This document shows, piece by piece, positions 2,076-21,521 of a stretch of DNA of 25,689 bases. Location of the stretch: positions 1 through 25,689 of the IMG/VR virus record IMGVR_UViG_3300033064_001612; one strand, given 5' to 3'. The notes below the pieces were generated by a model, which saw only the letters and a program-made list of their open reading frames with translations, was not told where the DNA came from and searched no databases. The stretch is from a virus. The translations under genes and the position numbers were made by a program. Every line of letters begins with the position of its first letter. The first letter of the stretch is position 1.

Positions 2076-3218
2076 ATGGCATTAAATTTAGTACGTAACA
2101 GTAGAGTATTCTTTACTACAGATGTTAACGCTACCACAGGTGTAGTAGACACTGCTGCTTTAGAAGCAGCAAAAACATTTGAAATTCAAGTTCTAGACGG
2201 ACTTACTTTTTCACAAAACACCAACCAAGAAACAGTAACCATTAACGAAGCAGGCTCGTCACCAGTTCGTGGACAGCGTAGCTTTAACGTTAGTTTAGCT
2301 CCTGTAGACTTTTCAATGAGCACTTATATTCGTCCGCGCAAAACCACAACTACGGGTACGCCTGCACTTGTAACCATTGACGCAGAAGAAAGTGTACTAT
2401 GGAATGCGCTATCAAGCGTAAGTGGTGACGGTTGGACCGCAGGTGCCATAAGCTCTGAGCTTAAGTTTAACAAATCTAACGCTAACCAGCTTCAAAAGTT
2501 TGGTTTAATTATTATCTTAGATAACGTTACTTATGTTATTGATGACTGTGTACTAACACAAGCAACAATTGACTTTGGTATTGACGCTATTTCTACAATT
2601 GCATGGACTGGTCAAGGTAAAACTCTTCGTAAGTTAGAATCAAACGGCACAACTAGTTTAGTTGAAGGTGTACCTACGTTTAGTGGTGGTTTAGCTGGTA
2701 GTTATACTCCAAAAACTATTGATGCACCTTTTATTGCTAATAAATTGAGTACTGCTACAGTTGCCAAAGGCACAGGTACTGCTTATGAAGTAGCTATTAC
2801 TGGCGGTTCCATAACTATTAACAACAACGTTACTTATTTAGTACCAGCTAACTTAGCTGTTGTTAACCAACCAGCTACTTATTTCACAGGTACTCGTGCT
2901 ATTAGCGGTAGCTTAAATGCTTACTTAAAAACAGGCGGTACAACCGACACCGGCGCGCTACTTGCTAGCATGCTGTCAGACACAAGTAACGTTGAGCCTA
3001 ATTTTAACGTACAGGTTGCAATTGGTGGAAGTACAGGCGCTGTTAAGGTAGAGTTAAGCATGCCTACAACTATGTTGACAATTCCAACAATTGATGTACA
3101 ACAAGTTGTTTCTACTACAATTAACTTTACTGCTCAAGGTTCTGCAACCGGTAATGCTGGTAGCAGCTATGACATTGACGCTGCAAACGAACTATCTGTT
3201 AAGTACTACGCAACTTAA
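2076..3218 (+). CDS. Major tail tube protein, T5 pb6-like
   Basis: This 380-residue protein is predicted to form the non-contractile tail tube. It matches T5 pb6 (from memory) along most of its length: an N-terminal ALNLVRNSRVFF strand, NEAGSSPVRGQRSFNVSL at about residues 57-74, an STYIRP strand at 82-87, GGSITINNNVTYL near 243-255, and a closing SGSLNAYL region near 278. In T5, pb6 carries a duplicated tube fold so that rings are trimers rather than hexamers; the length and the two similar halves here suggest the same. T5 pb6 is longer (464 residues) and ends in an Ig-like domain, whereas this one stops soon after the second tube domain at LSVKYYAT. Shine-Dalgarno AAGGAA at 2065-2070 sits 5 bases before ATG. 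A likely promoter precedes the gene and a hairpin terminator follows it, consistent with high, separate expression. Confidence 0.88.
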   Translation: MALNLVRNSRVFFTTDVNATTGVVDTAALEAAKTFEIQVLDGLTFSQNTNQETVTINEAGSSPVRGQRSFNVSLAPVDFSMSTYIRPRKTTTTGTPALVTIDAEESVLWNALSSVSGDGWTAGAISSELKFNKSNANQLQKFGLIIILDNVTYVIDDCVLTQATIDFGIDAISTIAWTGQGKTLRKLESNGTTSLVEGVPTFSGGLAGSYTPKTIDAPFIANKLSTATVAKGTGTAYEVAITGGSITINNNVTYLVPANLAVVNQPATYFTGTRAISGSLNAYLKTGGTTDTGALLASMLSDTSNVEPNFNVQVAIGGSTGAVKVELSMPTTMLTIPTIDVQQVVSTTINFTAQGSATGNAGSSYDIDAANELSVKYYAT

Positions 3219-3239
3219 TTTAGTGTAGTTTTTACACAA

Positions 3240-3273
3240 AGGGGTGGCTTGATCACCACCCCTATTTTTCTTT
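3240..3273 (+). terminator. Intrinsic terminator after the tube protein gene
   Basis: AGGGGTGG (3240-3247) pairs with CCACCCCT (3256-3263) around an 8-base loop, followed by ATTTTTCTTT. The GC-rich stem and T-run fit a Rho-independent terminator. Some read-through is expected, because I see no convincing promoter between it and the chaperone gene. Confidence 0.8.
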
Positions 3274-3296
3274 ATTAAAATAGGATATAACTCCAA

Positions 3297-3716
3297 ATGA
3301 CAAATCTATCACTTAAATCTCTTTTAGTACCTTCAAAAAATGTTGACATTGAGTACCCAGGAATGCCTGGATTCAAGATTTCAGTAGCATTTTTATCACG
3401 CGAAACACTTGTAGGTATTCGCAAGAAAGCTACAAAAACAGCTTTTAAAAATCGTCAACCAGTTGAAGAATTAAACGATGATTTATTTTTACAACTATAC
3501 GTTCAAGCCTCTGTAAAAAGTTGGTCAGGACTTAAGCTTAGCTATTTAGAGCAGCTAGCGCCAGTAGACTTAACGGGACAAAAGTTAGAAAGTGAACTTG
3601 AGTTCTCAGAAGAAAATGCTCTTTTCTTGATGAAGAATTCCTCAAACTTTGACGCGTTTATTTCAGAAACGGTTACTGACTTGGGAAACTTTCAGAGCAG
3701 CAGCGAAAAGAAATAA
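3297..3716 (+). CDS. Tail assembly chaperone, short form (G-like)
   Basis: This 139-residue, acidic-ended protein sits between tube and tape measure genes, where siphoviruses encode the chaperone pair that binds the tape measure and recruits tube subunits (lambda gpG/gpGT). The N-terminal half has beta strands (VDIEYPGMPGFKISVAFLS) followed by helices around RETLVGIRKKATKTAF, and the C-terminal half is helical with repeated Glu residues. The sequence is not obviously like lambda gpG; identification rests on position, size and the slippery heptamer near its 3' end. The start has a weak, distant AGGA (3282-3285) 11 bases upstream. Expression probably depends on read-through of the preceding terminator, which would keep chaperone levels below the tube protein. 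Confidence 0.8.
   Translation: MTNLSLKSLLVPSKNVDIEYPGMPGFKISVAFLSRETLVGIRKKATKTAFKNRQPVEELNDDLFLQLYVQASVKSWSGLKLSYLEQLAPVDLTGQKLESELEFSEENALFLMKNSSNFDAFISETVTDLGNFQSSSEKK
3683..3689 (+). promoter_or_regulatory. Programmed -1 ribosomal frameshift site GGGAAAC
   Basis: In the frame of the G-like gene this reads G GGA AAC, a perfect X XXY YYZ slippery heptamer; lambda G-T uses the near-identical GGGAAAG. After tandem slippage the P-site re-pairs on GGG and the A-site on AAA. Decoding continues at 3689 in the -1 frame, which is open from 3680 (after a TGA at 3677-3679) to 4063. The site is therefore only six bases downstream of the point where the -1 frame opens. I see no strong downstream stem-loop. 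Confidence 0.88.
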
Positions 3717-4063
3717 GTGAAATGATTACTTCATACTTTCAAAATAGTCAAGTGTCGATGACAAAAGAACTTTATTTTGAAATGTGTGAAGCATTTGGTA
3801 ACGAGCCAAATGATTCAGAAATTCCTGTGGAATTAATGGATTTTCCAGATGAAATACAAGACGTTTTTTCTCTTTATTATAAGCTACGAGACGACTGGGA
3901 TACTATGAATGGAATTTACTTAGGTAAAAACTATTCTGGTATACTCGATACTTTAGAAATTTACGAAGTAGAAAAAATAGACCGAAAGTTTTATATGGAA
4001 TGGTTCTCGGTTATTGATGCTGCTAGATCAAAGATACTTGCAGCTAATCGCCCTAGTAAGTAA
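3689..4063 (+). CDS. T-domain of tail assembly chaperone, made as G-T frameshift fusion
   Basis: This segment is in the -1 frame relative to the upstream gene and has no usable Shine-Dalgarno before its first ATG at 3722. It is therefore most likely translated only as an extension of the G-like protein after slippage at 3683-3689. The fusion would have 131 residues from the zero frame plus 124 from this frame (255 total), with the junction reading DLGN-LSEQQRKEISEMI. The T part is acidic and helical with aromatic residues (YFQNSQVSMTKELYFEMCEAFG, LYYKLRDDWDTMNGIYLGKNY, KFYMEWFSVIDAARSKI). In lambda the T domain binds the tube protein while G coats the tape measure; the same split of roles is inferred. 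If annotated separately, the ORF would be 3722-4063 (113 residues). Confidence 0.82.
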   Translation, partial: LSEQQRKEISEMITSYFQNSQVSMTKELYFEMCEAFGNEPNDSEIPVELMDFPDEIQDVFSLYYKLRDDWDTMNGIYLGKNYSGILDTLEIYEVEKIDRKFYMEWFSVIDAARSKILAANRPSK

Positions 4064-4073
4064 ACAAAAAGAT

Positions 4074-4110
4074 AAAAGCCCTGTAGATGAAAATTTACAG
4101 GGCTTTTTTG
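4074..4110 (+). terminator. Intrinsic terminator after the chaperone genes
   Basis: A perfect 12-bp stem, AAAAGCCCTGTA (4074-4085) with TACAGGGCTTTT (4096-4107), encloses a 10-base loop and runs into a T-tract (4104-4109). This is a strong Rho-independent terminator. It separates the tube/chaperone transcription unit from the tape measure unit. Confidence 0.9.
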
Positions 4111-4131
4111 TTTGGTTAAAAAATTTATGCA

Positions 4132-4160
4132 TTGACACACAAGGGCTGTTATGCTATAAT
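4132..4160 (+). promoter_or_regulatory. Full-consensus sigma-70 promoter with extended -10
   Basis: TTGACA (4132-4137) and TATAAT (4155-4160) match the sigma-70 consensus in all twelve positions with the optimal 17-base spacer. TGC directly before the -10 box adds the extended -10 element. Transcription would start near 4167, giving a leader of about 70 bases before the tape measure ATG at 4236. It lies 22 bases after the preceding terminator. Confidence 0.92.
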
Positions 4161-4235
4161 ATGGTGATTAAATGAAAATTGTAGCAAGTGGATAAATTAT
4201 ATCTGCTTATAAATACGGCTAATAGAAGGAAACCT

Positions 4236-7200
4236 ATGGCAACAGAAAATATTAAGATTGGTATAGACGTTGTATCTAATACAGATGCAGAAACTGCCAA
4301 AGCTATAAAACTAAAAAAGGCGTTTGAAGACGCAAATCGAGCTGCAGGTAACACAGGCGGTACTGCAGGTTCTCGCGCAGTTTCTGCTAAAGCGGCTCCT
4401 AGTGGACCCGGCATGACTGGTGCTCAATACAATATATCAAAAGGTGTTGGTGGAACAAGCGCCAGAGACTTTGCAGATGAGGCTAGGGGTCTAGGTGGAT
4501 TAGTTCGTGCATATGCTACTTTTGCTGCTAATATTTTTGCTGTAAGCGCAGCATTTACAGCACTAAGAGATGCAGCACAAACAGATAATTTAGTAAAAGG
4601 GTTAAACACACTTGGTGCAACAGCCGGTATAAGCCTTGGAACTTTAAGCAAACGACTAGTGGAAGCTACTGATGGGGCTATTTCACTAAGAGATGCTATG
4701 ACAGCTACAGCACAAGCGTCCTCAGCAGGTATGTCATCTAAAAACTTAGAACGTTTAGCAGTGGTAGCAAAAAATGCTAGTACTGCTTTAGGTGTATCTA
4801 TGTCAGATGCCTTAAGTCGTTTAAGTCGTGGTATTACTAAGTTAGAACCAGAATTACTAGATGAATTAGGAATATTTACTAAAATAGGTCCTGCTACAGA
4901 AAAATATGCTTTACAAATAGGTAAAACAGCCTCGCAGCTTAGTGACTTAGAAAGACGTCAAGCATTTGCAAATGCAGTACTAGAAGAAGGTGAAACTAAG
5001 TTTAATAGCTTAAGTTCTTCTTCAGCTAATGCGTATGATAAGTTGCTGGCTACAGTAAAAAATGCAGGCCAAGAAATTCTTAGCAGCATTAATGTAATAT
5101 TAGAACCAATAGCTAAGTTTTTAGCCAACAATCCTTTAATTGTAGCTGCTAGTACTATCGGGATAGCAGCAACACTTTTAAAAAGAGCTATACCTGATTT
5201 ACTGGGTGACTACACCAGAATACAAGCAGCAAATGAAAAAGCTCTAGAAACTCAAACTAAATCTTTGGAAAGCTCAAAAAAGCTACAAGCACAACTACTA
5301 CAAGAAAAAGCCGCAGCGGAAGCAATGGCTAAATCAGCTGCTATAAATGCTGATCGCAGATTAGCAGAAGCTGATGCAGCCGACACAGCAGCATCAAAAA
5401 TTAAGCAGAGCAAAAGTAGATCAGCAAAATTAGACGAAATACTTGGACCGCAAACGGATTATGCAGACGTTAGCAAATCACAGTTAGCGGCCTTAGAACA
5501 ACAAGCACAAAAATTTGATGGAAAAAACAAAAAAGCTGCAGAATCGTATAGATCTTTGGCTACTGCAATATCTGCATATCAATTAGAGTTAACAAAAGAA
5601 TCTGTTTCAACCGAGGCAGCAAAAGCAGCTACGGATAAACTAGCACAATCTAAACAAAGATTAATTGTTATAGAAAAAGAAATGCAAGCCGCACAAGCTG
5701 CAGCAGCTTTAAGTAACGCTAAATTAGCCGCTGCAAACAATCTACAAGAAAAAGGCTTTTTAGGTATATTTTCTTCTGTAGGTATTTTAAACAAAGGTTT
5801 AAAAGAGTTGGGCACTACTACGGGCACAAAGTTTGTAGAAATAGGAAAATTTATTGGTAGCGCACTATTAGGTGGACTAGGTAAAATGTTATCTGGTTTA
5901 AATATGGTTACAATAGCTTGGGCAGCTTTAACTTTACTATTAGATCTTGGCGCCGCTGTTTTTAGTAAAAATGCTAAGGAAATGGAAGCATTTTCCAAAG
6001 CTGCTGAAACAGCTAAAGATAGTGCCGACAATGTGAGCAGAACTATAGATGCGCTAAATAAAAAAGGTGGCTTTGCAAGCGGTACAATTGACGGCATTAA
6101 TGCAATGTCTAATGCTTTTACTGAATTAGCAGATTCCGCAAAAACAGCTACAGATGCGGCTGCCAAAGCCCAAAAATCTTTAGACTTTTCTTGGTGGGAT
6201 AAGGCTGCTAATAGTATTAAAAAATTAATAGGTGGAGATATTGCAAACAAAGAAGCGGATGCTTTAGGTGCTCAAATAGAAAATGCTTCTAAAATAATGG
6301 CTAGAGTAAGTGGAGGAGGTACTGCAACTTCCAAACTAAAAGGAATGTTAGGTATTACTAGCCTGGATGCTGAATCTGCTAGTCAAGCATTTAAAAAATT
6401 AGACGACGTTTCCAAAGGAAAAATAGTTGCTTACTTAAAAGAATTTAGTAATGAATTAAATACTACTTCACAGAAATTAACTAATTTTAAAACAAGTACA
6501 GATACTGCATATAAATCTCTTCAAGAATTTATACAGTCAACAGCAGTAAATAATCCACTATTAAAGCTTGGTCAAAGTTTACAAACTGTTGGCTTAAGCA
6601 TGACAGAAATATTTACGTCTAACGATCCTTCAAAGATGTTAGCTGCAATGGATGATTTGGTAAAAAATACTGAAAAAGCTGCATTATTTGGTCCAAAATT
6701 TGTAGAAGGAATAGTGAGTGTAAGAACTGAGTTTGCTCAGGCTACAAAAGAGGTAAAAGGTGTACAAGATGCACTAGCCGATAATACACTAGAATTAGAT
6801 AAACAGCAAAAAATTGTTGATAAATTTAATAAAACTTATGGTACAACACCAGTAGAACTAAAAGCGACGTCCAGTGTAGGACAATTTATAGATTCATTTT
6901 CTGCTGACACTGCTAAAAAAGAAACAGAGCGTTTACAAAGCGATAGGCGTGAACTTAATAAGGCTGTTAGCGCGGGTTCTGAAAAATATAGCGACGTATT
7001 TAAAAAGGCTACTTTATTATTTACCGATGGATTAAATACTGCTTTTAAATCAGGTGCAGAGTATATAACTAAAGCTCTGGGCCAAGTAAAAGAAAAAAAT
7101 GCATTGGACTTTGCAAGAGCTCAAGCAGGTGGTTTAAGTGGTGAAAATCAAGCAACAAAAATAGCCCAAATTAATCAAAAAGATGCTGAGTTACAGATAC

Positions 7201-10200
7201 AGCTTATTAATACAAATATAAGTCTAATTAAATCTCAAGAAGATTTAGCAGCAACAATTAATGAAGCAAACGCTCTTGCAAATGCAGCAATTGTAGGTAA
7301 AAATGCAGATCTTCCTCAAACAGCAAAAGATCAAGCACAATCTTCCGTGGCGGCAGCACAAGCATATAAATCTTTTGTAGGTGATGTAACTTCCAATAAG
7401 GCTAATACTAGTCAAAAAAGCATAGAAAGTTATGCTACTGGAAAAGGTCTAGACAGTTTTGCAACAGCTTTATTTAAGTCGTTAGCAGGAAAGTTATCTT
7501 CTGCTTTAGCAGGACAAGAGGCTGCTAAAGAAACCACTAAAGGTAAAGCTCGTGCACAAGGTGAAACAGATAGACAAAATATTGAGTCTGGACGTTTTGG
7601 TGATTTAGCTAAAATTAGTCAACAAGAACAACAAATTCTATCTGCAAAAATACAGCAAAAATCAATTCTTGACTCTATTGCAGGTGTAACAAGTCAAGAA
7701 GCTATATTAAGCCAACAAAAACTAGATAATAGTTTATTAGAGAAAAAACAGAGTCTAGAGTTAGAAGATATACAGTCTCGTATGGTTAAAGCTGGTTCAG
7801 ACGAAAAAGAAATAAACAAGCTAGATAAAGAAAAAACAAGTATACAAGAACGGCAAAAACTAGAAAAGGATAATGCCGGTTTAGTAGTTAGACAAAAATT
7901 ACTAAATTTAGAATTAGATAAAATTAGCCAACAGTATGAACTTATTGCCTCTAATGCCGAACTACAAAAAACCACGGCTTTAACCAAATTAGATTATGAC
8001 TCTCAGGAGCTATCACTACTATCTTCGGCGTATGATATAACAAAAGAGTATGCTATTGTTAAACAAACGCAGTTAGATAAAGAAAGGGCACTAGTAGAGA
8101 CTAGCATTACTATGCAGCAAGTTCAAGACGTGCTTAACAAAAAGCGTGAAGACGGCGAGTTGCGAATAGCCGAACTTGGAGGCAGCAGAACATCGGCTCA
8201 AGCTGAAGCTATTCTTGCAGAAATAGCTAGGCAAGAAACCTTAACTAAAAATACTATTTCAGGTTTATCCGTACAGTATAATAGTAAAATAGCAGTACTA
8301 AATAAAACAAAAGAAATAAACCTAGAACAAGAACGATACAATCAATTACTTGAAAGTAGCGTAACATTTGCTGAGTCGTTAAAAGGTGCATTTGGCGAAG
8401 TAGGTGCAGCTATTGGTGGTTTTGTTACATCTTTAACTGAAGTAACAATACAAAATGAAAGAAATACTAAAGCACTTGAAAAAGCCACTAAAGCTAAAAA
8501 AGAAGCTTACGATAGTAAAGATGTTGACAAAATAGCCGATGCTGATTTAGCGTATAATGCACAAAAACGCAAGTCACAAAAAGATGAGTTAAGCGGAAAC
8601 ATAAAGCTAGTATCTTCAGCTAAAACTATGTTTAACGAAAAAACTGCTACTTACAAAGCACTAGATAAAGTTGAAAAAACAATGCATTTGTATAGAATGG
8701 CTATGGATGCAAAAGAACTAGCTTTTAAAGTTGGTAACGCAATAATGGGTGTTACAGCCAAAGCAGGAGCAGAGGCAGCAAGTACGGGAATAACCTTTGC
8801 AGGCGTTGCAGCAAGACTACCTGCTTATATTGCAGAAATTTATGCTAGCTGGGGTGCTATGGGTCCCTGGATGGCAGCAGCAGCAGGGGTATTTATTGCC
8901 AGTAAACTTGGGGCATTTGGTGGCGGTGGTGGCGGCAGTGTTCCTACATTTAGCGCTAACTCCGAACAAATACAGGAAACCCAAGGTACGGGAATGACCT
9001 ATGACTCAAAAGGTAACAAAGTTTCGGACATAGGCGGTATTCTTGGTGATGACGAGGCAAAAGCTAACTCTATAGTTAATTCTTTAGAAATACTAAAAGA
9101 AAACTCTTTTGAAGGCCTGGACTACGACAATAAGCTGCTACGCAGTTTTGAAAATGTAGCTGGCGCAATAGGTAAAGCTACTAACACAGTACTAACTTCA
9201 GGGCTAAGAACTGTAACTAGTGAAATACTTGAAATTATGTCACCTAAAAAAGAAGGCGGTTTTGGTTCAAGTATACCTATTTTAGGGGGTATTATAAGCG
9301 GGATATTTGGAGGAGATCGCTCAGAGTCAAGCAGTATTAACAGCCAAAGACTAGAGCTTAGCGGAACTTTTTATAACGTATCTAAAGATATAGAAAGTGG
9401 GTTAAGCCAAGTAACTGACGTGTTAGTTAAATGGGAAGAAGATGGTGGGTGGTTTGGAAGTGACGACTCAGGTAGTTATATTAAACCAATAACAGGTACA
9501 GTTCCTGATGACATAAAAGAAGCATTTACTAGCATTTTTGATAATCTTGAGCAAGGCTACCAAGAAATAGCTAAAATGATGGGTAATAAAGATTCGTTTA
9601 CTTTTGTTACTGATAAACTAAAAACCGTAGAATTAAGAGGCCCCAAAGGCAACCCTCTTAAGTTTGATTATACCGGACTTAAAGGTGACGAACTTAAAAC
9701 AGAATTAGAAGCATACTTTAGCAAAATAAACAATATTGCAATAAAAGCGCTGTTTCCAGAATTTAAAGAATTTGAAACTGCAGGCGAAGATTACGGTACT
9801 ACCGCTGTTCGTGTTTTACAAAATACAAAACAAGTAAGAATAGGCTTAAATTCTATTGGATCAGCAAAAGCCGGTTCAATTGGTGAAGGGCTTTCCGGAT
9901 TCAGAGCTGCAGACGACATTTTAAAAGAAGCAGGCGGCTTAGATGTTTTTGCAGATCAAATAAAAGCTTTTTCTGACAATTTTTTAACTGAAGCTGAGCG
10001 TTTAGTTCCTAAACAAAAAGCAGTTACAGATGAAATGAACAGGCTTGGTTATGCAAGTGTTGACACGCGCGAAGAATTTAAAGCACTAGTACAAAGCGCA
10101 AGTATTTCAAAAGAAGACTTTCAGTCATTAATGAATATTCAAGCAGGATTTCTTGCAATAAGAGATGCAGAAGAAAAAGCATTAAAGGCTCGTACAGACA

Positions 10201-11255: not shown

Positions 11256-11258
11256 GTA

Positions 11259-11288
11259 AAATAGGGGTCTTTAATTAGACCCCTATTT
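11259..11288 (+). terminator. Hairpin terminator after the tape measure gene
   Basis: A perfect 12-bp stem, AAATAGGGGTCT (11259-11270) with AGACCCCTATTT (11277-11288), surrounds a 6-base loop. The downstream T-run is short (TTTATT), so termination may be partial. That would let the Dit/hub/J genes be transcribed from the tape-measure promoter, since I see no clear promoter between 11256 and 11311. Confidence 0.7.
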
Positions 11289-11311
11289 ATTACCTTTATA
11301 AGGATAACAAA

Positions 11312-12133
11312 ATGGCAAATTTAAGAGTAATACATACTAACGTTGCAGATTTGGCAACAATAAGTGTTGGCATTAACAACACAGCCGCAGGGTTTGATAT
11401 AAAAAATGTACAAAATACTAAAAAAACTAGTGTACATAGAAGCTTAGCTAGTACAGTAAATTATGAACTAAAATGGGAAGGTAACCCACAAAAAGTAAGT
11501 GCAATAGCACTGCCAGCTACAAATTTATTAGATGGTGCAAGTATAAGTGTAAAGCTATACACAGGGGTTAACGATACCACAGCTAGAGCTGATAGCGGTA
11601 CATTAACCGCAGCAAAAGATAGAACAATATTAATACCCCGTAACGGTACTTATGATAGTAATGTTTTTGCGTATAACGGGGCTACTAAAACTAGTGTGTG
11701 GTTTAATGCGGAATATCTTGTAGAAAAAATAATTATATCTGTTGTTAGCGGAGCCCCTGTTGATTGCGCAAGAATAGTATGCGGAACTTACTGGGAAAGC
11801 AGTAGGCAAGTAAGTAACGGCATTACACTTGGTATTACAGACAATAGTGTAATAACTACTAGTAGGGCTGGCGATGTATACGCAGACCGTAGACCTAAGC
11901 AAGAAACAATGCAGTTTCAGCTACAGTACTTAAGCGACACAGATAGACGTAAACTTCAACAAATTATGAATGCTTATGGCTCAAACGGGTTACTGTTTGC
12001 ATGCGTATTTCCAGATAATACAAATCCTGAAGTCACTCAGGCTTATTCAATATATGGAAGAAGTCAAGATAATAACTTAGAGTATGTTTTATTTAGTTTG
12101 TATAACAGTAGTATGACTATAAACAGTTGGTAA
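11312..12133 (+). CDS. Putative distal tail (Dit-like) protein
   Basis: This 273-residue protein follows the tape measure gene, where the distal tail protein that links the tube to the tip is normally encoded. The first half looks like a beta-sandwich of galactose-binding type (TVNYELKWEGNPQKVSAIALPATNLL, ASISVKLYTG, VEKIIISVVSGAPVDCARIVCGTYWE). The second half reads YADRRPKQETMQFQLQYLS and then a helix with DRRKLQQIMNAYG, ending in short strands with YVLFSLYNSSMTINSW. A charged helix after a YADRRPKQ-type strand recalls the way tip proteins present a partner-binding strand. It does not resemble T5 pb9 as I remember it. Shine-Dalgarno AAGGA (11300-11304) is 7 bases before ATG. The role is inferred from position and could instead be another tip component. 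Confidence 0.5.
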   Translation: MANLRVIHTNVADLATISVGINNTAAGFDIKNVQNTKKTSVHRSLASTVNYELKWEGNPQKVSAIALPATNLLDGASISVKLYTGVNDTTARADSGTLTAAKDRTILIPRNGTYDSNVFAYNGATKTSVWFNAEYLVEKIIISVVSGAPVDCARIVCGTYWESSRQVSNGITLGITDNSVITTSRAGDVYADRRPKQETMQFQLQYLSDTDRRKLQQIMNAYGSNGLLFACVFPDNTNPEVTQAYSIYGRSQDNNLEYVLFSLYNSSMTINSW

Positions 12134-12137
12134 ATAA

Positions 12138-13637
12138 ATGAAAAAAGTAAGTGAATTAATAAATTGGTTAAATACACCAGATCATATAAAATGTACGCTT
12201 GTGGACATAGTAGGAGTAGGCGGCACGACCGATTCTTTTTACTTATCTAGTGTAGCATATAATAGCACAATAAATTACTGGCCTATAATTAACGGCGGCT
12301 TAATTTTTACCGAAAGCCTATCTGTGGACGGCTCTGTATCCTCAAGTTTTGGCAGCTTAGAGCTAGTTAACTTTAATGGTGAATATGATTACTTGTTAGA
12401 CTATGTGTGGAAACGCAGAAGAGTAAAAATTTATTTAGGTGATCCTTCTTGGCCAAAAAGTGACTTTGTGTTAATATTTGATGGTTTAGTAGAGGATTTA
12501 ACTTGTGATAGCGAAAGTAGTTTAACTATATCAATATTTGATAAACTACAAAAACTAAATGATAATATTACAGAAAAAACACTGCTAAATACCAGCTATT
12601 CTCAAAATACTCAAAACACAATATTGCCCCTACTATTCGGAGAGTGCTTTAATGTTCAGCCATTGTTTGTAGGCACCGACAATACCAAAGATATTCGTAA
12701 TGTATACATGTACCACGATGGTGTAAAAACTGGGGGCGGTACTAGTGGTTTAATTGAAGTACGTGACAACGGTATACCTGTTGAAGTAGTAGAAGATATA
12801 ACTGAAGGTACTTTTTCTTTAATATCTGACCCAAGAGGTACTGTAACTTGCAGCGCACAAGGATACGCACCCTATACTAATACTGTAGCAGGAATTATAG
12901 CTGCTATTGTTAAAAACTATGGTGCCAACCATAATAAATTTACAGATTCAGATATTGCTTTTGAGGATTTTACTAACACCAAAAAAGTAGGTATATTTAT
13001 AAAAGACAGGATTAATATACTAGACGTATGCTCGCAGCTTGCTAAAAGTGTTAATGCTGGGTTAATCTGCCCTAGTATAACTATTGCAAATGATACTGTT
13101 AGTGCCAGTAAACTAAAACTAATTGAACTAACTGCCCCTAAGATTCTTGCGGACTCTGAGTATAAATTTAAGTTTACTGATGCGTCTATGGTTGAAGGCA
13201 GTTTAGCAATTTCTCAAACATTTCCAGTTCGTCCTATTATAAAGTTATCATATTGTAAAAATTATACTGTACAAGCAACAGTAGCTGAAGGAGTAAATCC
13301 GGCCGTAAATTTTTCTTATGAGTATTCCTATGTAACGGCTAAAGATGATGCAAAACAAATACTGTACAATGATAGCGGTACTGCTACAGAAGAACCTACA
13401 TTATTACTAGTAGAATCAGAAGCAGAAGAAGAAGCTGCCAACAGGCTACTGCTGTGGTCAAAACAGCGATTTTTAGTAACAGCAATATATTTTCCTGAGT
13501 TTATTTTTGTGCAATTAGGTGACAGAGTAAGTATACAATCAAGTAGATTTAATTTAACTACAGCAAAACCGGGTATTGTGTTTTCGATTCAAAGAGACTG
13601 GGTAACTGGTATGGTACAAATTGGAGTATTAATTTAA
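12138..13637 (+). CDS. Baseplate/tail-tip hub-like protein
   Basis: This 499-residue protein probably belongs to the tail-tip hub that closes the tube and holds the central fibre. The N-terminal part (about residues 50-140) has strands typical of hub proteins: GGLIFTESLSVDGSVSSSFG, WKRRRVKIYLGDPSW, then FVLIFDGLVEDLTCDSESS and SISIFDKLQKLND-like segments. Near residue 160 comes ILPLLFGECFNVQPLFV, similar to the Pro-hydrophobic-Gly strand that begins the next domain in such proteins. The C-terminus (FVQLGDRVSIQSSRF, then SIQRDWVTGMVQIGVLI) matches the usual hub ending, in which a strand describing the result is followed by a D-TG-V-I hairpin. It starts 4 bases after the previous stop with no clear Shine-Dalgarno, and its stop overlaps the next ATG by one base, so the three tip genes are probably translationally coupled. 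Confidence 0.55.
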   Translation: MKKVSELINWLNTPDHIKCTLVDIVGVGGTTDSFYLSSVAYNSTINYWPIINGGLIFTESLSVDGSVSSSFGSLELVNFNGEYDYLLDYVWKRRRVKIYLGDPSWPKSDFVLIFDGLVEDLTCDSESSLTISIFDKLQKLNDNITEKTLLNTSYSQNTQNTILPLLFGECFNVQPLFVGTDNTKDIRNVYMYHDGVKTGGGTSGLIEVRDNGIPVEVVEDITEGTFSLISDPRGTVTCSAQGYAPYTNTVAGIIAAIVKNYGANHNKFTDSDIAFEDFTNTKKVGIFIKDRINILDVCSQLAKSVNAGLICPSITIANDTVSASKLKLIELTAPKILADSEYKFKFTDASMVEGSLAISQTFPVRPIIKLSYCKNYTVQATVAEGVNPAVNFSYEYSYVTAKDDAKQILYNDSGTATEEPTLLLVESEAEEEAANRLLLWSKQRFLVTAIYFPEFIFVQLGDRVSIQSSRFNLTTAKPGIVFSIQRDWVTGMVQIGVLI

Positions 13638-16600
13638 TGTTAAAAACACCTGTTAACAGCAAAGACACTGCTTTACAAGCATTGCCGCAGCGAGTAGTAT
13701 CGCTAAACACAAATTTTATATCTTTGGCTTCTCCGTATCTAGAATTTGTGTACGGAGGAATTAATGATACAGCTTTTCCTACAAGCATAACCGTAACTGC
13801 TCAGTTGGCAGGTAATCTACAAGGCGTTGTTGAGTTCCCTCCTATTGATGGTTTAAAAGAAGGCACAACTTTTGAGCAGGTTGGCAATACTCTAATAATA
13901 GACCCCAGTAAATTTGCTGGGTACTATATAACCATACAGGCCACACTAGACTTTAATGGTGCAACATATACCTCTAACCCCGTAGTTATATCCAAAAGAT
14001 ATACTAGCCTATCTACAAGGTTAACCAGAACTTTTGATGTTATAAGCAGTGATTCGGACGGCAAAAATTATATATTACCAACCGACGCTAATACTCTAGA
14101 ACTGTATAATGGTAGTATTAAGCTAACAAAAGATGTAGTTTATGGAATACTTGGAGAAAGTGTTCTTAACTATAAAACAGTTGATGGGTTAACATTAACC
14201 ATAAACAAAAACACTGGCGCAATATCTCTTAGCGATGCTTCTACGTCTACTAAATGGGATAAAGATAGTGCAACTTTTGTTTTAACAGCAACTATTGGTT
14301 TAACTACATTTTCGTCTACTTATACTATAAACAAGTTAAGAGAAGGCGGTGTTGGAGTAGATCCCACTGTAGCCCCTACCCCTACAGGACTTAAAGTGTC
14401 GGGCGGAACATCTTTTATATTTGTTTCAGTTGGCGTTCCAGATTATACTGTAGGACACGGACACTCAAAAACTAAGATATATGCACTAAGTAAAAAACAA
14501 TACCCAGAAACAGAAGAACAAATTTTTGCTAACGCTACACCTAAGTCAGAGTTTACTGGAACTATTGGTAGTTTTGAGTCTGCTGCTGACACTACTTGGT
14601 TAGTATGGGCGTCTTGGGTAACTATTGACGGTTTTGAGGGCAACACGGCAGGACCTGTGCTAGCCTCTAGTTCACTAGATACAACAGCACTTGTTGACGC
14701 AGTTCTTGCCGAAAACAACAAGCAGTTTGAGGTAATTAAAACACCCGAAGTTAGGTTTTTTGGTACTCCTCAACAGATTACTATTCCTGCCGGTGTTTAT
14801 GCAAAAGCCGCTTTTATTACTGATGGTTTTATTACCAATGCAAAAATTGCGGATGCTGCAATTGATAGCGCAAAAATCTTAAACTTAGATGCTATACACC
14901 TTACTGCCGGAGACGGTACAATTGGTGGAGTACTAAAAAGCGGTAACTATAATTACTTAGTTGATGCTAATGGCGTGCCAAGACGTGGATCAAATCAAAA
15001 CGGCTGGGCAATATTTCCAGATGGTTCTGTTGATTTTGCAGCAGCAGATATTCGGGGGCAATTAACTGCTGGTCAAATTGACGGCACAGGTTTATCAATT
15101 AAAAGAAGAAACAGCGATGGTACTTACACCACTATTTTAGATTCTGGTCTGAGTATACAACAACAAATTAATAACTATGCGGTAAATGCTTCAGCAGGTA
15201 TTACACTTAATTTTGACCCTACCTGCTCTAACACAACAGCGTGGAATAGTGAAAATATTGCTACTATAACTGATGGCACTACAGGTAATAAGGTATTAGC
15301 TGGCAGTAATGGGGAACATTTATTTGAAGGTATTACAATTAACAAAGCGTATACCATTAACTATGACCCAAAAAAGCGTTATCAGTTATCTGCATTAATT
15401 CGCAGAACAGCTGGAGCAGTTAAAGGCGATGTACACCTAGGTTTGCTAGAAATTGATACAAATAATACGGCTCGGTATGACTGGGGCGGATACTTAGCAG
15501 GTAAGTTTGCAGTAAACAACTTAACCACAGAATTTAAACGCTACTATGCTTATTTTAGTCCCGGTGATTTACATACAGGCGTATCAAAAGTAATTGTACA
15601 TACTGTATTAGGTTATTCACCAGATGGTACTGGCACAGGTGGCGGACGTGTAGAAATTCAAGACATTAATCTTGAGGATATTAGTCTAGGCCATGCGATT
15701 CAATATCAAACTGTGACTACAGCAGCAATTGATACTACGGTTAAAACTACTGCTGTTTTAAATACTACTCAAAGCAACATGGGTATTAATAGCTGGGTAG
15801 TTAACCGCTATTCAGTAAGTACTACAGCTGGCACAATTCCTGAATACACATTTTTTGCTAACGTTACCCCCGTACAGACAGTTACTTTTGCAGATGCAGC
15901 TAGTTTAACAGGCAGTACTATATTTGGCGCTGATTATAGTAACTATATTGGTGTAGCAACCTCTAACGTATACTGTGAAACCGCTACTACATGGACTACT
16001 ACTGTTAGTGGTGACGACGGGCATAATCTTTATGTTAACGGTATATCAGTAATTAAGAGCGGCAATGCGCGCGCAGCTACTGCTGTAACAATTAACTTTC
16101 CAAAAGGTTGGTCTACAGTAGAAGCTGTGTGGTGTGAACAAGCAGGCGGTGACGGCTTTGGTTTTGCTACTAAAATTTCTGCAACCACAGGTGTCAAAGA
16201 AATGTGGGCTTTTGTTGGAGGAACATTGGCAACTAATGGTATAGCAGCTAGCGCAGCTACTACATCTACTTGGTCTGGGACTATAAATATTCCTTATGAT
16301 AAAATATTTGCTACAGACGCAACAACTACCTTAGGCTTTAATCCTTCGTTTGAATTATGGACAGGGGCGTATCCAGATAAGTGGAACTCATGGGGCGGAA
16401 CAGCTCCAGTAAAAGAAACTACAGATACTAGATTTGGTACTAATGCAGTAAAATACATTGCAAGTGGAGAAGCCGGACTAGGTATTGAGCGTAGCACCAC
16501 ATGGACACAACCAATGCCTAAAGGAACGTTTATTTCTGGCACTATGGATGTAAATTTATTAACAGTTACTAGAGGACTACCTGGAATACTTGTTAGATTA

Positions 16601-18136
16601 TTTACTAAAGTTGTTGATTTAAATAATCCTGCATTAAATACTTATGTTGATACAATTGTACAGCCAACTAATGCTACTAACACATGGCAGCGCGTACCTT
16701 TTACTGCTCGTGTGGGTTTAGCTCAAGAAATATACGGAGTTCAAGTATTCATAATTGGCTCTTGGAGCGGGTTTACTTCCGGAAAATTTACGGGCACAGT
16801 AGTTTTTGACGGACTTACTTTTGCGTTTTTTGATAACACAATTGATAACAAAGATATTACTATTGATGGTGACGGTAAACTAACAGGCACTGGTGCTAAA
16901 GATGTAGTAGTTAACAACAAAATTATTAAAATTGATGATAATGGTAAATTAACTGGAGTAGGTACCGATAATGTAGTAGTTAATAACGGTTCTATAAGTA
17001 TAAACACTGTTGGTGAATTACGAGGTATTGGTGGTACTGAATATGTAGTTGTTAACAACAAAATAATAAAAGTAAATGAAACAACAGGTGTACTAGAGGG
17101 CGTAGGTACTGAAAGTGTGGTAGTTAACAACAGCATAATTAATGTTGATGGTGACGGTAAACTAACAGGTACCGGTGCTACTAATGTAGTAGTTAACAAT
17201 CAAAAAATTACTGTTAGCGGAACAGGTACGCTAACTGGTATCGGTACAGCAAATGTAGTAGTTGATAATTCAAAAATAGTAGTGGGTGGTACTAACCTAA
17301 TACGTAACGGTGGTAATTTTAATTATTCTGAAGGCTGGCAAACAACAGGCAGTGGTTTGGTTAGTATTAGCAATACTATTAAATATGGTACAAAAAATAC
17401 TTTACAAATTAAGGAAAGTTTAGGTACTACCGGGGGAATTAGAAGTGCTACAATAATGGAGTTAAAGCCAGATACCGAATATATTGTTAGCGCTATAGTT
17501 AAAGGTAATAAAGCAATAAGTGGCGGCGTAAATAAAATACTTAATATAGAAAATTGGACTACCGGCAACTCAACGGCTAGAAGTCCTGGTTCTTTATCAG
17601 CAGTTAATACAGACGTTACTACAGCTTGGAAACAAATTTATCAAGTTTTTACTACTCTGCCAGACGATGGAACTGGTGGTATTGTATACTGTCGTTTCTC
17701 TTTTTCACCAATAATTAGCGCACAGTTAAATATTGCTTATGTACAGCTAGAGCAAGGTAATAAAATAACAGACTGGAGCCCTTGCCCCGACGACATACTT
17801 AGTGAGATTAAAAATGTAGCCGATAATAGTATTGCTCCAGATAAAGTTATTAAATCTCAAGCCGCTAATATTTTGCCAGCTGATGGTGAGTTTACTATAC
17901 AAACACCAAACTTTGATGTACCAAGCGGAGGTAACGGTGTATTAATATCAGCTAGGGGAATAGTGGGTAGAAAAACCGAAAGTATTAATGGAGTTAATAC
18001 TACTAAAGAAACTTTTGCTATTGATACAAATGGTGACGCAAGTTTTAGAGGTACAGTAGTTGCTTCTTATATGCACGACGGTGATAATAAATTTGTTATA
18101 GATTTAAAAAATAGGTTTATTTCTATTTCTGTATAA
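13637..18136 (+). CDS. J-like central tail fibre / tip attachment protein with sugar-binding-like modules
   Basis: This 1499-residue protein follows the hub gene and has the outline of a lambda J-type tip protein. Beta-rich Ig-like segments fill residues 1-350. A J-like stem follows near 390 (AAFITDGFITNAKIADAAID, DAIHLTAGDGTIGG). Then come a beta-sandwich near 528-684 (WNSENIATITDGTTGN to VEIQDINLED), a PA14-like segment near 778-805 (SGDDGHNLYVNG), and a second carbohydrate-binding-like sandwich near 898-1065 (NPSFELWTGAYPDKWNSWGG). Six tandem 23-24 residue repeats occupy 1073-1212, and a third sandwich runs about 1219-1385 (NLIRNGGNFNYSEGW to LEQGNKITDWSPCPDD). The C-terminus has FAIDTNGDASFRGTVVASYM, common at the end of such fibres. 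It probably binds the surface receptor. ATG overlaps the preceding TAA (TAATG), with GGAG (13623-13626) upstream. Confidence 0.72.
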   Translation: MLKTPVNSKDTALQALPQRVVSLNTNFISLASPYLEFVYGGINDTAFPTSITVTAQLAGNLQGVVEFPPIDGLKEGTTFEQVGNTLIIDPSKFAGYYITIQATLDFNGATYTSNPVVISKRYTSLSTRLTRTFDVISSDSDGKNYILPTDANTLELYNGSIKLTKDVVYGILGESVLNYKTVDGLTLTINKNTGAISLSDASTSTKWDKDSATFVLTATIGLTTFSSTYTINKLREGGVGVDPTVAPTPTGLKVSGGTSFIFVSVGVPDYTVGHGHSKTKIYALSKKQYPETEEQIFANATPKSEFTGTIGSFESAADTTWLVWASWVTIDGFEGNTAGPVLASSSLDTTALVDAVLAENNKQFEVIKTPEVRFFGTPQQITIPAGVYAKAAFITDGFITNAKIADAAIDSAKILNLDAIHLTAGDGTIGGVLKSGNYNYLVDANGVPRRGSNQNGWAIFPDGSVDFAAADIRGQLTAGQIDGTGLSIKRRNSDGTYTTILDSGLSIQQQINNYAVNASAGITLNFDPTCSNTTAWNSENIATITDGTTGNKVLAGSNGEHLFEGITINKAYTINYDPKKRYQLSALIRRTAGAVKGDVHLGLLEIDTNNTARYDWGGYLAGKFAVNNLTTEFKRYYAYFSPGDLHTGVSKVIVHTVLGYSPDGTGTGGGRVEIQDINLEDISLGHAIQYQTVTTAAIDTTVKTTAVLNTTQSNMGINSWVVNRYSVSTTAGTIPEYTFFANVTPVQTVTFADAASLTGSTIFGADYSNYIGVATSNVYCETATTWTTTVSGDDGHNLYVNGISVIKSGNARAATAVTINFPKGWSTVEAVWCEQAGGDGFGFATKISATTGVKEMWAFVGGTLATNGIAASAATTSTWSGTINIPYDKIFATDATTTLGFNPSFELWTGAYPDKWNSWGGTAPVKETTDTRFGTNAVKYIASGEAGLGIERSTTWTQPMPKGTFISGTMDVNLLTVTRGLPGILVRLFTKVVDLNNPALNTYVDTIVQPTNATNTWQRVPFTARVGLAQEIYGVQVFIIGSWSGFTSGKFTGTVVFDGLTFAFFDNTIDNKDITIDGDGKLTGTGAKDVVVNNKIIKIDDNGKLTGVGTDNVVVNNGSISINTVGELRGIGGTEYVVVNNKIIKVNETTGVLEGVGTESVVVNNSIINVDGDGKLTGTGATNVVVNNQKITVSGTGTLTGIGTANVVVDNSKIVVGGTNLIRNGGNFNYSEGWQTTGSGLVSISNTIKYGTKNTLQIKESLGTTGGIRSATIMELKPDTEYIVSAIVKGNKAISGGVNKILNIENWTTGNSTARSPGSLSAVNTDVTTAWKQIYQVFTTLPDDGTGGIVYCRFSFSPIISAQLNIAYVQLEQGNKITDWSPCPDDILSEIKNVADNSIAPDKVIKSQAANILPADGEFTIQTPNFDVPSGGNGVLISARGIVGRKTESINGVNTTKETFAIDTNGDASFRGTVVASYMHDGDNKFVIDLKNRFISISV
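16853..17272 (+). repeat. Six tandem 23-24-residue coding repeats in the J-like gene
   Basis: Residues 1073-1212 consist of six head-to-tail units of 23, 23, 24, 24, 23 and 23 residues. The pattern is I-x-I/V-D-G-D-G-K-L-T-G-x-G-x-x-x-V-V-V-N-N, and a seventh begins as KIVVGG. Units 1 and 5 share an exact 25-base DNA match (16863-16887 and 17145-17169). The regular hydrophobic/Gly/Asn pattern suggests a beta-solenoid or trimeric beta-prism shaft between two sugar-binding-like modules. Confidence 0.9.
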
Positions 18137-18145
18137 TGTGGGTAT

Positions 18146-18175
18146 AAACAAGATAAAAAAATTTTATCTTGTTTT
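18146..18175 (+). terminator. Intrinsic terminator after the J-like gene
   Basis: A perfect 13-bp stem, AAACAAGATAAAA (18146-18158) with TTTTATCTTGTTT (18162-18174), encloses a 3-base loop. The stem is AT-rich and there is little T-tract beyond it, so efficiency may be modest, although the right arm itself is T-rich. It starts 10 bases after the J-like stop codon. Confidence 0.65.
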
Positions 18176-18197
18176 ATACAGGTATAGGTGATATAAT
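18169..18197 (+). promoter_or_regulatory. Extended -10 promoter for the fibre genes
   Basis: TATAAT (18192-18197) is preceded by TGA, giving a perfect extended -10 element. TTGTTT (18169-18174), 17 bases upstream, is a partial -35 box. The -35 lies inside the right arm of the preceding hairpin, so terminator and promoter overlap. Transcription would start about 20 bases before the gene at 18225. Confidence 0.7.
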
Positions 18198-18224
18198 AGG
18201 TAATAAAATATTAAGGGTATAAGT

Positions 18225-21200
18225 ATGGCAACAGTATCAACAGAACTACAACAAGCATATAATATAGCCATTGCAGCCAAAACTCCAGTTGATTTAATGT
18301 CGGAAGATGCTTCTGTTTCAATTAATGTTGCTACAAGCGATCAAACAAATCTTTTCTTAAAAAGCGCTGCATTATCAAAAAATTTAGCAGATTTAACTAG
18401 TGCTAACTCAATAGCAACGTCCGCAGATGTTGTCAAAACTGTTGCCAATGTAGCTTTAGCACAACAGCAAGTAACATTGGCAAATGAAGCTAAAACAGCA
18501 GCAGAAACTGCTCGCGATGCTGCTGTAATTTCCGCAAATATATTTTCCTCAATAGCTGCCGGATTAAACGGCACAACTAATGATAAATATTTTAGTGTTC
18601 CGTCCCCTATAGATTCGGAATACTTAATACTTTATCGTAATGACAATAACACCGCAAAAGAAATAAAACGATACCCCAGTGCTATTGGTTTAGAGTACAC
18701 TACAGGTAACACACTATATGTTAAATCTAATGGTAACGATTCCTATGATGGAGGTAGTTGGAAAACAGCTTTTCTTACTATTGAGCACGCATTGGCCGTT
18801 GCCACAGAGCTACAAAAATTAAACATCAATACACTAATTGAAATTGGACCTTTTAGCGACTATCGTACAAAAGGGCATTTAGATATGCCCGATAATTGCG
18901 TTGTTAAAGCTGTACACCGTACGGTTTTTGTACGCCCGGAAAAAGGCTATGAACAGCGTAATGTATTTCGTATGGGTAGCGGATGCTTTTTAGAAGGTGT
19001 AATGTTTGAAGGCTGGCAAGTAGACAGTTTTGAAAATCCTACAGAGGGTTTTGCCGTTAGTTTTCGCCCTGGTGCAAAAATTATGCGCGTTCCTTACGCA
19101 CATAAAATAGCTGTTCGAGCAACACCTGATTGGGGTATAATCCCTCCTCCACTAGATGCAGCAAATGGAAATCCCTATGTAAAACGTGCTGGAGGTGTTT
19201 GTTTAGCAGACGGCGCCGTTATTTCGCAGTATAGTATATTCCCAAACATCATGACTTGGGGTGCTACACCAGTATTACCAAATGGTATTGGTTACTGTGC
19301 TAAAAATGGTGCACTAATTAACGCTGTTAATGCTGTCTCAATCTGGGCACACAAACACTTTATGGCAATTAGTGGGGGTCAATTAATTTTAAGCGGCTGT
19401 TCCACACAGTTCGGAGATTACACACTATTTGCTAGTGGCGGACGCAGTTTGGTTAGTCCGGTTAGGTTACCTGATTCTTTTAATATAAAAAACCAAAAAA
19501 TAGTAGAGCTTATTACCAAAGACAATGTTACTTCTACTACCGATATTCTTGGTAACCCTATTATATTTAAAAACACTGATATAATTATATATCATCTATT
19601 AAATGAATTAACTGCTAAAAAGTACGACATAAATTTAGACCCAACAATGCAGGAAAAAACAGGATCAGACGCTAGACTACTATTACAGTGTTTAGTATGG
19701 TCTGTTGGTAGTGGAAATCAGCAGCCTATGCTTGATTTTGCTAAAGGTATGTTTGATACTAATAGCACTCCTGTATACCTAGGATTAAGTAAGTCTGAAG
19801 TTACTCCTACAGTGCAAGATGCAGCTGCTATGATTATTAATGATGCAGAACCACAAATTATTGACGCTGTGTGTGTTGCACTACAGTCTGCTGGGTATAC
19901 TACTACGTGGAACTGGATTAATGCAGACGGTAGTGACGGAACTGATAAAGCGTTTACTCGCAGAGACACTCTTACGCTGCTAAATGCGCTAGAACAAGTA
20001 CTACAAAACGGTGATGAATCTTCAATGCATACCTTTGCAAAAGGGTTATATACACCAACAGGTACACTTGTAATTGGTGATAGTAAATTTGGTGGAACAC
20101 TATATTCATTTAATTTTATACGTGATTATATAGTTGCGCTACCTGGTATTAGTACACAAGCAGTTGCATTAATAAAATCATTATTTACTGCACTAATATA
20201 TAAACTTAATAAAGCAAAACCAACAAAAACAAATATTACTTATACACCAAACTCTACTGTTAGAATTAATGATAGTGATAAACTAGGTATTATTGATGCT
20301 GTATGTGATACATTAGTTTCTGGTAGATATACCTCTACTTGGAATTGGGGTACAAACGCGGTTCCGGGTATTGATCAAATTTATACTCGCAGAGACACTA
20401 ATACACTACTGGTAGCACTACAAAATACTATAAATACTGGTAATGAACAGTATATGATGGATTTTGCTATTGCACTATATAACTATAAAGGTGAGCTTGT
20501 ATTTAGTGACCAAAAAATACCTGGGTTTAAATTTTCTTTTACAACAATACGAGACAGAGTTTTATCTTTACCAAGTATTAGCGCATCCGCTTCAGCTAGA
20601 GCTTATATAACACAACTATTTGCGGCTTTAAATAGTTCAATTAGCGTAGAAATTTCAACAGCTATACCAGTTGTGCGGTATACAGGTACCCCAGATGTAC
20701 TTGTTATAAATGACACTATTCCTGAAGATATGTGGAATGAGTTAACTTTTGCAAAATATACCACAGGTTGGTCAACAACTGACAAAGAACTTACTATTCG
20801 TGATGCAAAAAATTTAATGACATCTATTAGAACTAGTATTTATGCAGGTAACGATACTGCATTAAAAACATTTATACAAGGTTTATTTACCTCACCCGGT
20901 AGGTTTGTAATCAGCGAAGGTAAAGCTGAAGCTACAATTGTTGGTTTAAACTACATACTTAAAGCAGTTAAAACTAACCCTAGCACAGTACAAAACTACC
21001 CGCAAATAGCAGCATTAGTTGATAATTTATCTAATTTAATGTTTGCAACAATAAATAAATATAGCAATGTATTTAGCGGTAAAAATGCTTTTACATTTTC
21101 ATTCAACACTATAACTAATAAAATAATTGATTTAATGGATACAAGCACAGACTATGCGTTTACACCAGCAGATAAAACAATTGTCACTACATTAATTAGC

Positions 21201-21521
21201 ACTATGAAAAGCAACATATTTAGTCCGAGTTTTATTATAGAACCAAGCCGCATTACCGCTATTGGGCACACTTGGACTTCTGTAATGGGTGGTGTTGCAC
21301 TTACAAAAATACCTCCAGCTAATAATAATGCAAGTATTCAAGATTCTATTGTTGAAGAAAATGATGCCATTGTTATTGCGTCAGGACAAGACGATCAAGG
21401 TAATGCACTATTTGTTGGTGGATTACAAATTAGTGCAGATACTGGGGAATTAGGCGGTACACCGTTTGATCAAGCAGTACGCAGGGTAGCTACCAGAGCC
21501 TCAATTTCTAGGAGTTTTTAA
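18225..21521 (+). CDS. Beta-helical tail fibre-like virion protein, cyanophage-type, with repeated helical domains
   Basis: This 1098-residue protein is probably a trimeric fibre or appendage. An Ala/Lys/Glu-rich coiled coil spans about residues 43-115. Next comes a right-handed beta-helix, roughly 163-405. It opens with NTLYVKSNGNDSYDGGSWKT and a following TAFLTIEHALAVA, the usual start of this fold in phage virion proteins. It ends with NAVSIWAHKHFMAISGGQL and TQFGDYTLFASGG, a pattern I recall from T4-like cyanophages. Residues about 430-940 are four related helical units containing motifs such as TTTWNW, TRRDTLTLLNALEQVLQNGD and FAKGLY. The C-terminus (EPSRITAIGHTWTSVMGG, then VIASGQDDQGNALFVGGLQI) again resembles cyanophage structural proteins. 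Shine-Dalgarno AAGGG (18213-18217) is 7 bases before ATG. Role in receptor binding or enzymatic polysaccharide cleavage is not proven; no catalytic residues were identified. Confidence 0.7.
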   Translation: MATVSTELQQAYNIAIAAKTPVDLMSEDASVSINVATSDQTNLFLKSAALSKNLADLTSANSIATSADVVKTVANVALAQQQVTLANEAKTAAETARDAAVISANIFSSIAAGLNGTTNDKYFSVPSPIDSEYLILYRNDNNTAKEIKRYPSAIGLEYTTGNTLYVKSNGNDSYDGGSWKTAFLTIEHALAVATELQKLNINTLIEIGPFSDYRTKGHLDMPDNCVVKAVHRTVFVRPEKGYEQRNVFRMGSGCFLEGVMFEGWQVDSFENPTEGFAVSFRPGAKIMRVPYAHKIAVRATPDWGIIPPPLDAANGNPYVKRAGGVCLADGAVISQYSIFPNIMTWGATPVLPNGIGYCAKNGALINAVNAVSIWAHKHFMAISGGQLILSGCSTQFGDYTLFASGGRSLVSPVRLPDSFNIKNQKIVELITKDNVTSTTDILGNPIIFKNTDIIIYHLLNELTAKKYDINLDPTMQEKTGSDARLLLQCLVWSVGSGNQQPMLDFAKGMFDTNSTPVYLGLSKSEVTPTVQDAAAMIINDAEPQIIDAVCVALQSAGYTTTWNWINADGSDGTDKAFTRRDTLTLLNALEQVLQNGDESSMHTFAKGLYTPTGTLVIGDSKFGGTLYSFNFIRDYIVALPGISTQAVALIKSLFTALIYKLNKAKPTKTNITYTPNSTVRINDSDKLGIIDAVCDTLVSGRYTSTWNWGTNAVPGIDQIYTRRDTNTLLVALQNTINTGNEQYMMDFAIALYNYKGELVFSDQKIPGFKFSFTTIRDRVLSLPSISASASARAYITQLFAALNSSISVEISTAIPVVRYTGTPDVLVINDTIPEDMWNELTFAKYTTGWSTTDKELTIRDAKNLMTSIRTSIYAGNDTALKTFIQGLFTSPGRFVISEGKAEATIVGLNYILKAVKTNPSTVQNYPQIAALVDNLSNLMFATINKYSNVFSGKNAFTFSFNTITNKIIDLMDTSTDYAFTPADKTIVTTLISTMKSNIFSPSFIIEPSRITAIGHTWTSVMGGVALTKIPPANNNASIQDSIVEENDAIVIASGQDDQGNALFVGGLQISADTGELGGTPFDQAVRRVATRASISRSF
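19560..21060 (+). repeat. Four degenerate ~93-145-residue protein repeats in the fibre gene
   Basis: Units begin near 19580, 19858, 20290 and 20723; the last three are spaced about 432 bases (144 residues) apart and the first is shorter. Shared features in order: a helix (IIDAVCVAL, IIDAVCDTL, EDMWNEL), an aromatic YTTTWNW/YTSTWNW/YTTGWS segment, a TRRDT/TIRDA turn, a helix ending in GN/GD with FAKGLY-like residues, a strand G-L-V-x-x-D/E, and a final helix (FNFIRDYI, FTTIRDRV, LNYILKAV). Units 2 and 3 share 16 identical bases (19955-19970 and 20384-20399). Confidence 0.75.

Follow-up and report, generated by a model that had tools for sequence, protein, structure and literature searches.

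A T5-type tail with a probably replaced tip and a putative three-gene host-recognition cassette shared among uncultured phages of several tail types

The 25,689 bases analysed here make up a complete IMG/VR record (hereafter the window). Judging from gene content and homology, they probably cover the tail genes of an uncultured siphophage of the T5-like kind in which the tip of the tail was replaced as a module. The replacement would run from inside the tape-measure gene onward and end, again with good probability, in a mobile host-recognition cassette. This cassette consisted of a fibre, a 170-aa protein (p170) and a large protein (gene 3), conserved at the N-terminus and variable thereafter. 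That it belongs to an adsorption module crossing morphotypes is well supported by the sequence comparisons. A broader reading is slightly more likely than not: the cassette, with an anchor-swappable fibre, p170 and a gene-3 protein combining a fixed joint and a variable tip, would be common among uncultured phages and unrepresented among cultured ones, serving as an exchangeable host-recognition device that passes between virions of the T4-like, T5-like, lambda-type and podo-like kinds with only the N-terminal anchor changed.

All main genes of the window were on the plus strand, in the order p143-like protein, tail terminator, tube, two chaperones, 2355-aa tape measure, p273, p499, 1499-aa protein, 1098-aa fibre, p170 and a protein of about 1200 aa; those for p143, p142, the tube, the chaperones and the tape measure stood in T5-like order. 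The window's DNA sequence recurred unchanged within a 42-kb record (G001), where head genes were also present, encoding the large and small terminase, the portal, a protease/major-head-like protein and a head-tail adaptor. A megablast search of the whole window against phages returned no match.

Homology makes the T5 label sound for the p143-like gene, the terminator and the tube. The tail completion-like protein (53..1558), encoded by a frame open to the contig start, was akin to T5 p143 in its C-terminal part (PF25747 T5_p143; E = 1.2e-8, over the cut-off). With 544 aa in the longer contig G001 (L045:5182-6813) against 253 positions in the T5 p143 family profile, it was roughly double the size of that profile, and only the C-terminal part matched. 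The terminator (1555..1992) was of the T5 p142 type (PF23818, E = 5e-34; phrog_3907, E = 9.7e-34). The tube protein (2076..3218; 380 aa) belonged to the T5 pb6 family (phrog_3575 'major tail protein', E = 2.9e-60) and matched the PDB entry for pb6 (7qg9; E = 1.6e-38) over pb6 residues 1-341 of 464. A preliminary description of this DNA had recognised a T5-type tube by pb6 landmarks, and both landmarks, NEAGSSPVRG and GGSITINNNVTYL, indeed lay at the aligned places of NEAGPRPTRG and GGTFTINNNITYL in T5 pb6. No real match extended past pb6 residue 341, the remaining approximately 120 aa of pb6 (its C-terminal extra domain) being absent; the tubes of some relatives were longer (482-588 aa). By tblastn, 902 of 50,697 phage records contained a match to the tube. 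Most belonged to T5-like phages of Vibrio, Salmonella, Escherichia and Klebsiella, identities among the matches listed being 31.7-34.9%. Two tail assembly chaperones followed (3297..3716, phrog_313, E = 8.7e-17; 3722..4063, phrog_3914, E = 1.3e-13).

The tape-measure gene (4188..11255; 2355 aa; phrog_3779, E = 1.3e-48) was composite when compared by segment with blastp: its N-terminal part was common to two T5-like relatives without the fibre (G003 and G004), whereas its C-terminal part (from about aa 1911, position 9918 on) was common to the fibre-carrying relatives. Compared with the window, G003 (locus L050) had a tube identical at 82%, a chaperone at 81% and a tape-measure start at 61%, but a tape-measure end at only 21%, and it possessed other tip genes; G004, with a tube 80% identical, also had another tip. 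The tape-measure end was 37-58% identical in G002, G009 and G019, which also possessed p273, p499 and the fibre. As this end was kept with the fibre carriers but lost relative to G003, the divergence starts inside the tape-measure gene. The fall from 61% to 21% along a gene that follows such similar tubes marks a candidate recombination point.

The same split was found downstream. Tail-tip protein p273 (11312..12133; phrog_8610, E = 3.1e-17), a member of the tip module, was 56-66% identical in fibre-carrying relatives and 28-35% in other T5-like relatives, and p499 (12138..13637; phrog_8917, E = 6.7e-36), the probable hub, was 56-65% identical in fibre-carrying relatives (63-65% in G002, G009 and G019). 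Searched against the PDB, the profiles of these two proteins matched no relevant solved structure, the T5 tip included, and a PDB sequence search with the fibre, p499, p273 and p170 gave nothing usable. The next gene (13637..18136) encodes a 1499-aa tip or central fibre protein, 41-47% identical in the fibre-carrying T5-like relatives, with a weak match under the cut-off to a carbohydrate-binding domain. This protein also contained a run of repeats of about 20-30 residues of the kind GKLTGTGxxxVVVNNxIIxI.

The fibre (18225..21521; 1098 aa), the first cassette gene, was characterised by PHROG profiles, tblastn and a family HMM. It comprised an N-terminal anchor (aa 1-153; 18225..18683), in which a coiled-coil stretch precedes an ARDAA...YFSVPS...KRYPS motif; a body domain (aa 150-410; 18672..19454) akin to Synechococcus phage tail and baseplate proteins; four alpha-helical repeat units (aa 435-950; 19527..21074); and a C-terminal domain conserved in the fibre family (SRITAIGHTW...DDQGNALFVGG...SISRSF; 21174..21518), with SRITAIGHTW and DDQGNALFVGGL near the protein's end. 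Residues 141-384 matched phrog_13163 'baseplate wedge subunit' (E = 2.8e-15). Among the 50,697 phage records, tblastn with the body domain matched only Synechococcus phages, at 27-32% identity; the N-terminus gave a further short match, to Pseudomonas phage Meara. As these were both cyanomyoviruses (ACG-2014f, DSL-LC03) and cyanopodoviruses (S-RIP2/KBS-P-1A), the body domain already spans two cyanophage morphotypes. The family HMM placed this relationship far past chance (S-RIP2, E = 6e-24; ACG-2014f, E = 5e-21).

The AlphaFold2 model of the fibre was of low overall confidence (pLDDT 66, pTM 0.36), with a coiled-coil helix at residues 33-102, a strand-rich stretch at 163-260, a low-confidence stretch at 285-401 and then the helical units. 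Its best Foldseek match was a glycoside hydrolase (5mqp; 90 residues, E = 0.05), none falling under 1e-3. The beta-helix opening proposed in the preliminary description corresponds to a region that does match cyanophage proteins, but as a fold it is weakly supported by these models. The motifs described there at the protein's end (SRI-A-GHT and DQ-GN) were likewise present, but their likeness to cyanophage proteins was weaker than that of the body (phrog_17885 'tail fiber', E = 4e-4); profile-profile comparison of the C-terminal domain with cyanophage segments (hhalign) gave an unconvincing 6% probability. Phycocyanin- and globin-like folds obtained by Foldseek for the helical units (E of 0.09 and above) were not significant and perhaps due to chance. 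Most fibre relatives were about 540 aa long and contained the N-terminus, the body, one helical unit and the C-terminal domain; with four units in the window and six in L069, differences in unit number likely change the length of the stalk.

Two kinds of N-terminal anchor were distinguished. According to an anchor HMM, the ARDAA...YFSVPS...KRYPS type occurred in the T5-like carriers, in the lambda-type contig G020, in some other non-T4 carriers and in a fibre-like protein of Pseudomonas phage Meara (PV565044; 58% identity over 65 residues). Most T4-like carriers, together with cyanophage DSL-LC03, possessed an RSAVPGKVPTxxQLxLGELAINTYDGKLFLKR type, and N-termini of the GELAxNTxDG kind were absent from the T5-like fibres. 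Anchor type tracked virion type in most carriers; on sequence grounds, such a carrier-dependent N-terminus is the mark expected of one body mounted on different virions. Among the fetched loci, no other T5-like phage had the same anchor on another body.

The module was larger than in the preliminary description, which ended at 21521: it comprised three genes and extended to 25645. With the body domain as query, 31 IMG/VR loci were found at 60-77% identity (the identical G001 copy left out), and a p170 homologue was called directly after the fibre in 28 of them; in L085 it was recovered by HMM scan, while the loci L072 and L096 are cut off within the fibre gene. Conversely, p170 (21522..22034), predicted to have a beta-rich fold, matched at least 122 IMG/VR contigs, of which 80 were kept, and the fibre was directly upstream, mostly within 15 bases, in all 54 distinct p170 sequences inspected. 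A third gene on the same strand followed p170 in 53 of the 53 loci with room for it. In the window this gene (22034..25645; the likely start is the ATG at 22034, the listed ORF beginning at 21980) encodes a probable receptor-binding distal protein with a conserved N-terminus, MANLSDQKTLQNKSA...YSADGRMYFSNGSVW, and a variable remainder. In the relatives, conserved residues such as LSDQKLLSGR or FLSGRVKKTP marked the opening (counted with a loose pattern and read by eye), after which length and content varied freely.

Additional arrangements were observed at single loci. A second, strongly diverged pair of fibre and p170-like genes lay a few kb ahead of the main cassette in L083 (487-4956) and L092 (2011-4669); L092 lies in a gp23-positive record, and the second set of L083 also had a third gene with the usual kind of N-terminus. 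Immediately upstream of the fibre gene, L079 (5736-9830; 1365 aa) and L082 (6319-9780; 1154 aa) contained very long opposite-strand ORFs.

Beyond these viral contigs, a pattern scan of 84,980 prokaryote genomes for p170 and a scan of prokaryote genomes for the body domain found no relatives, and therefore gave no clue to a host or prophage. In the phage collection p170 had no credible match (best E = 0.9), and no description of a cassette of fibre, p170 and gene 3 was found in the literature searched.

The role of p170 admits a second interpretation. Instead of a virion joint, p170 may act on the fibre or on the gene-3 protein as a maturation chaperone or a transient cap, a possibility to which we give about one chance in four. 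A small gene directly beside fibre genes in every locus would suit such a role, and a fibre-chaperone pair common to unrelated phages is already known, the fibre chaperones of Alteromonas phages A5 and V22 having been proposed to act in maturation (PMC10579305). However, p170 lies between two large structural genes and not after the receptor-binding gene, it matched no chaperone family, and its model was compact and beta-rich (pLDDT 78). Foldseek gave this model no PDB match under 1e-3. A joint within the virion is the preferred role.

The cassette was found on contigs of several tail types, as the preliminary description had anticipated in suggesting an exchange of adsorption modules across morphotypes. 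Carriers were typed by marker genes on incomplete contigs, several by one marker only, and morphology was read from these markers. T5-like carriers (G000/G001, G002, G009, G019 and G021) were judged by tape-measure and tip genes. Among T4-like carriers, gp23 exceeded the Pfam cut-off in 20 cassette contigs (4 of 29 and 16 of 38), including records of 201 to 382 kb; sheath genes were found in cassette contigs G027, G032 and G040, and a sheath PHROG in G037. Few markers underlie the lambda-J class (G020, E = 2e-144; J fragments in G039 and G042) and the podo-like class (G024 and G025, in which the fibre is closely preceded by terminase and a portal/head-tail adaptor gene). The body domain was 70-72% identical between the window phage and podo-like or lambda-type contigs, in which the T5 tube was not found. 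A search for the T5 terminator in 38 further cassette contigs found none, a weak indication of absence since the control genomes also lacked this family. In podo-like contigs (L074:2131-9024), terminase and portal-like genes immediately preceded the cassette, and a separate 87-aa gene encoded the conserved gene-3 N-terminus.

In fibre-body trees, the T5-like sequences clustered (94/91; inner four 95/89) in a group that also held lambda-J and podo-like contigs; the remaining typed diversity was mostly T4-like, and the cultured cyanophage proteins formed long outgroup branches. The trees are unrooted, place the T5-like sequences with moderate support and give neither donor nor direction. The window fibre did not group with Kyanoviridae, contrary to the grouping expected in the preliminary description, which had called the fibre cyanophage-type. 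Of that label, the relationship of the body domain to T4-like cyanophage proteins stood (phrog_13163 and the family HMM). The two outcomes that the description had named as contradicting its reading did not occur: the fibre had matches outside T5-like phages, and its kinship with cyanophage virion proteins could be detected. A Kyanoviridae type or cyanophage origin of the fibre is not supported by these comparisons, in which cyanophages are remote outgroups and not a demonstrated donor. The cassette should rather be attributed to uncultured phages, many of them T4-like, with a remote relationship to cyanophage tail proteins. A specific transfer from Kyanoviridae into a T5-like phage is unlikely. 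Only Synechococcus phages matched the body domain among deposited phages, DSL-LC03 has the anchor of most T4-like carriers, and the gp23 of the T4-like carrier G069 was closest to cyanophages (65%); however, the cyanophage homologues are at only 25-32% identity and on long branches, p170 was found in none of the deposited phages, and the nearest fibres were in other T5-like, lambda-J and podo-like contigs. The gp23 of G073 was nearest to that of Sinorhizobium phages (68%), so that, together with G069, the T4-like carriers do not form one cyanophage group.

Old vertical inheritance, in which tailed phages had the cassette from a shared ancestor, most lines lost it and no recent exchange took place, might explain the wide spread over tail types and the remote homologues in cultured cyanomyoviruses and cyanopodoviruses. 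It is very improbable given a body-domain identity of 60-72% between phages with no detectable relationship among their tail genes, T5-like tubes down to 32-57% in many pairs, and the lack of the fibre in G003 and G004 despite tubes of 80-82%. Mis-assembly of a T5-like tail with an unrelated fibre, conceivable in that the window and G001, having the same DNA sequence, might stem from a single assembly, can practically be dismissed because four further T5-like contigs (G002, G009, G019, G021) with diverged sequences had the same gene order, and G+C was even along the window (35-38%).

The directly observed features (homology, gene order, carrier diversity, tip switch and anchor difference) suggest how the exchanged module may be built. 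The T5-type terminator, tube, chaperones and tape-measure start would have been kept, with a different tip from within the tape-measure gene onward. A virion-specific N-terminal anchor may hold the fibre on this tip, the stalk may consist of the body plus helical units in varying number, and the C-terminal domain with p170 may form the joint between the fibre and the gene-3 protein. The latter would be tied to the joint by its conserved N-terminus, its variable distal part facing and binding the receptor. The joint and stalk roles are putative, because the p170 model had no significant PDB match and the fibre model was poor. Changing the anchor would let the rest work on another tail type, and changing the distal part of gene 3 would change the host range.

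If correct, this model would allow the host-range gene, and its decisive part, to be predicted for numerous uncultured phages, large T4-like phages among them, and the mounting of one adhesion device on contractile, flexible and short tails would become testable. It would also provide a clear case of module exchange in which the attachment domain is replaced, as well as a caution that fibre-based prediction of host or taxonomy across morphotypes can mislead.

Among known systems, the T5 tail (pb6, p142, p143) is represented in the window by a homologous terminator and tube and a p143-like protein, ordered as in T5-like phages; unlike in T5, the window tube ends where the pb6 match ends. The profiles of p273 and p499 matched no T5 tip structure. 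The Meara protein has the anchor motif in common, the rest being unrelated. ACG-2014f gp269, a Kyanoviridae baseplate-region protein, and the S-RIP2 tail-region protein possess a homologous body domain at about 25-32% identity, but they have a different N-terminus and run on into long fibre sequence where the window's protein ends; p170 was not found in the fetched regions around them. The closest parallel is the host-recognition module shared by Alteromonas phages A5 (a schitovirus), V22 (a myovirus) and P24 (a siphovirus) (Gonzalez-Serrano et al. 2023, PMC10579305). In the phage collection, which may lack these three, the fibre, p170 and gene 3 matched no Alteromonas phage. In both cases one adsorption module occurs on phages of podo-, myo- and siphoviral type whose genomes are otherwise unrelated, and the fibre has a small partner gene. 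Unlike that module, from which it differs in sequence, the present cassette was found on T5-like and T4-like backbones, with exchanged anchors and helical units that differ in number, and only in uncultured phages. Cross-morphotype module exchange is thus already known from A5, V22 and P24, and the present cassette adds a variant of it.
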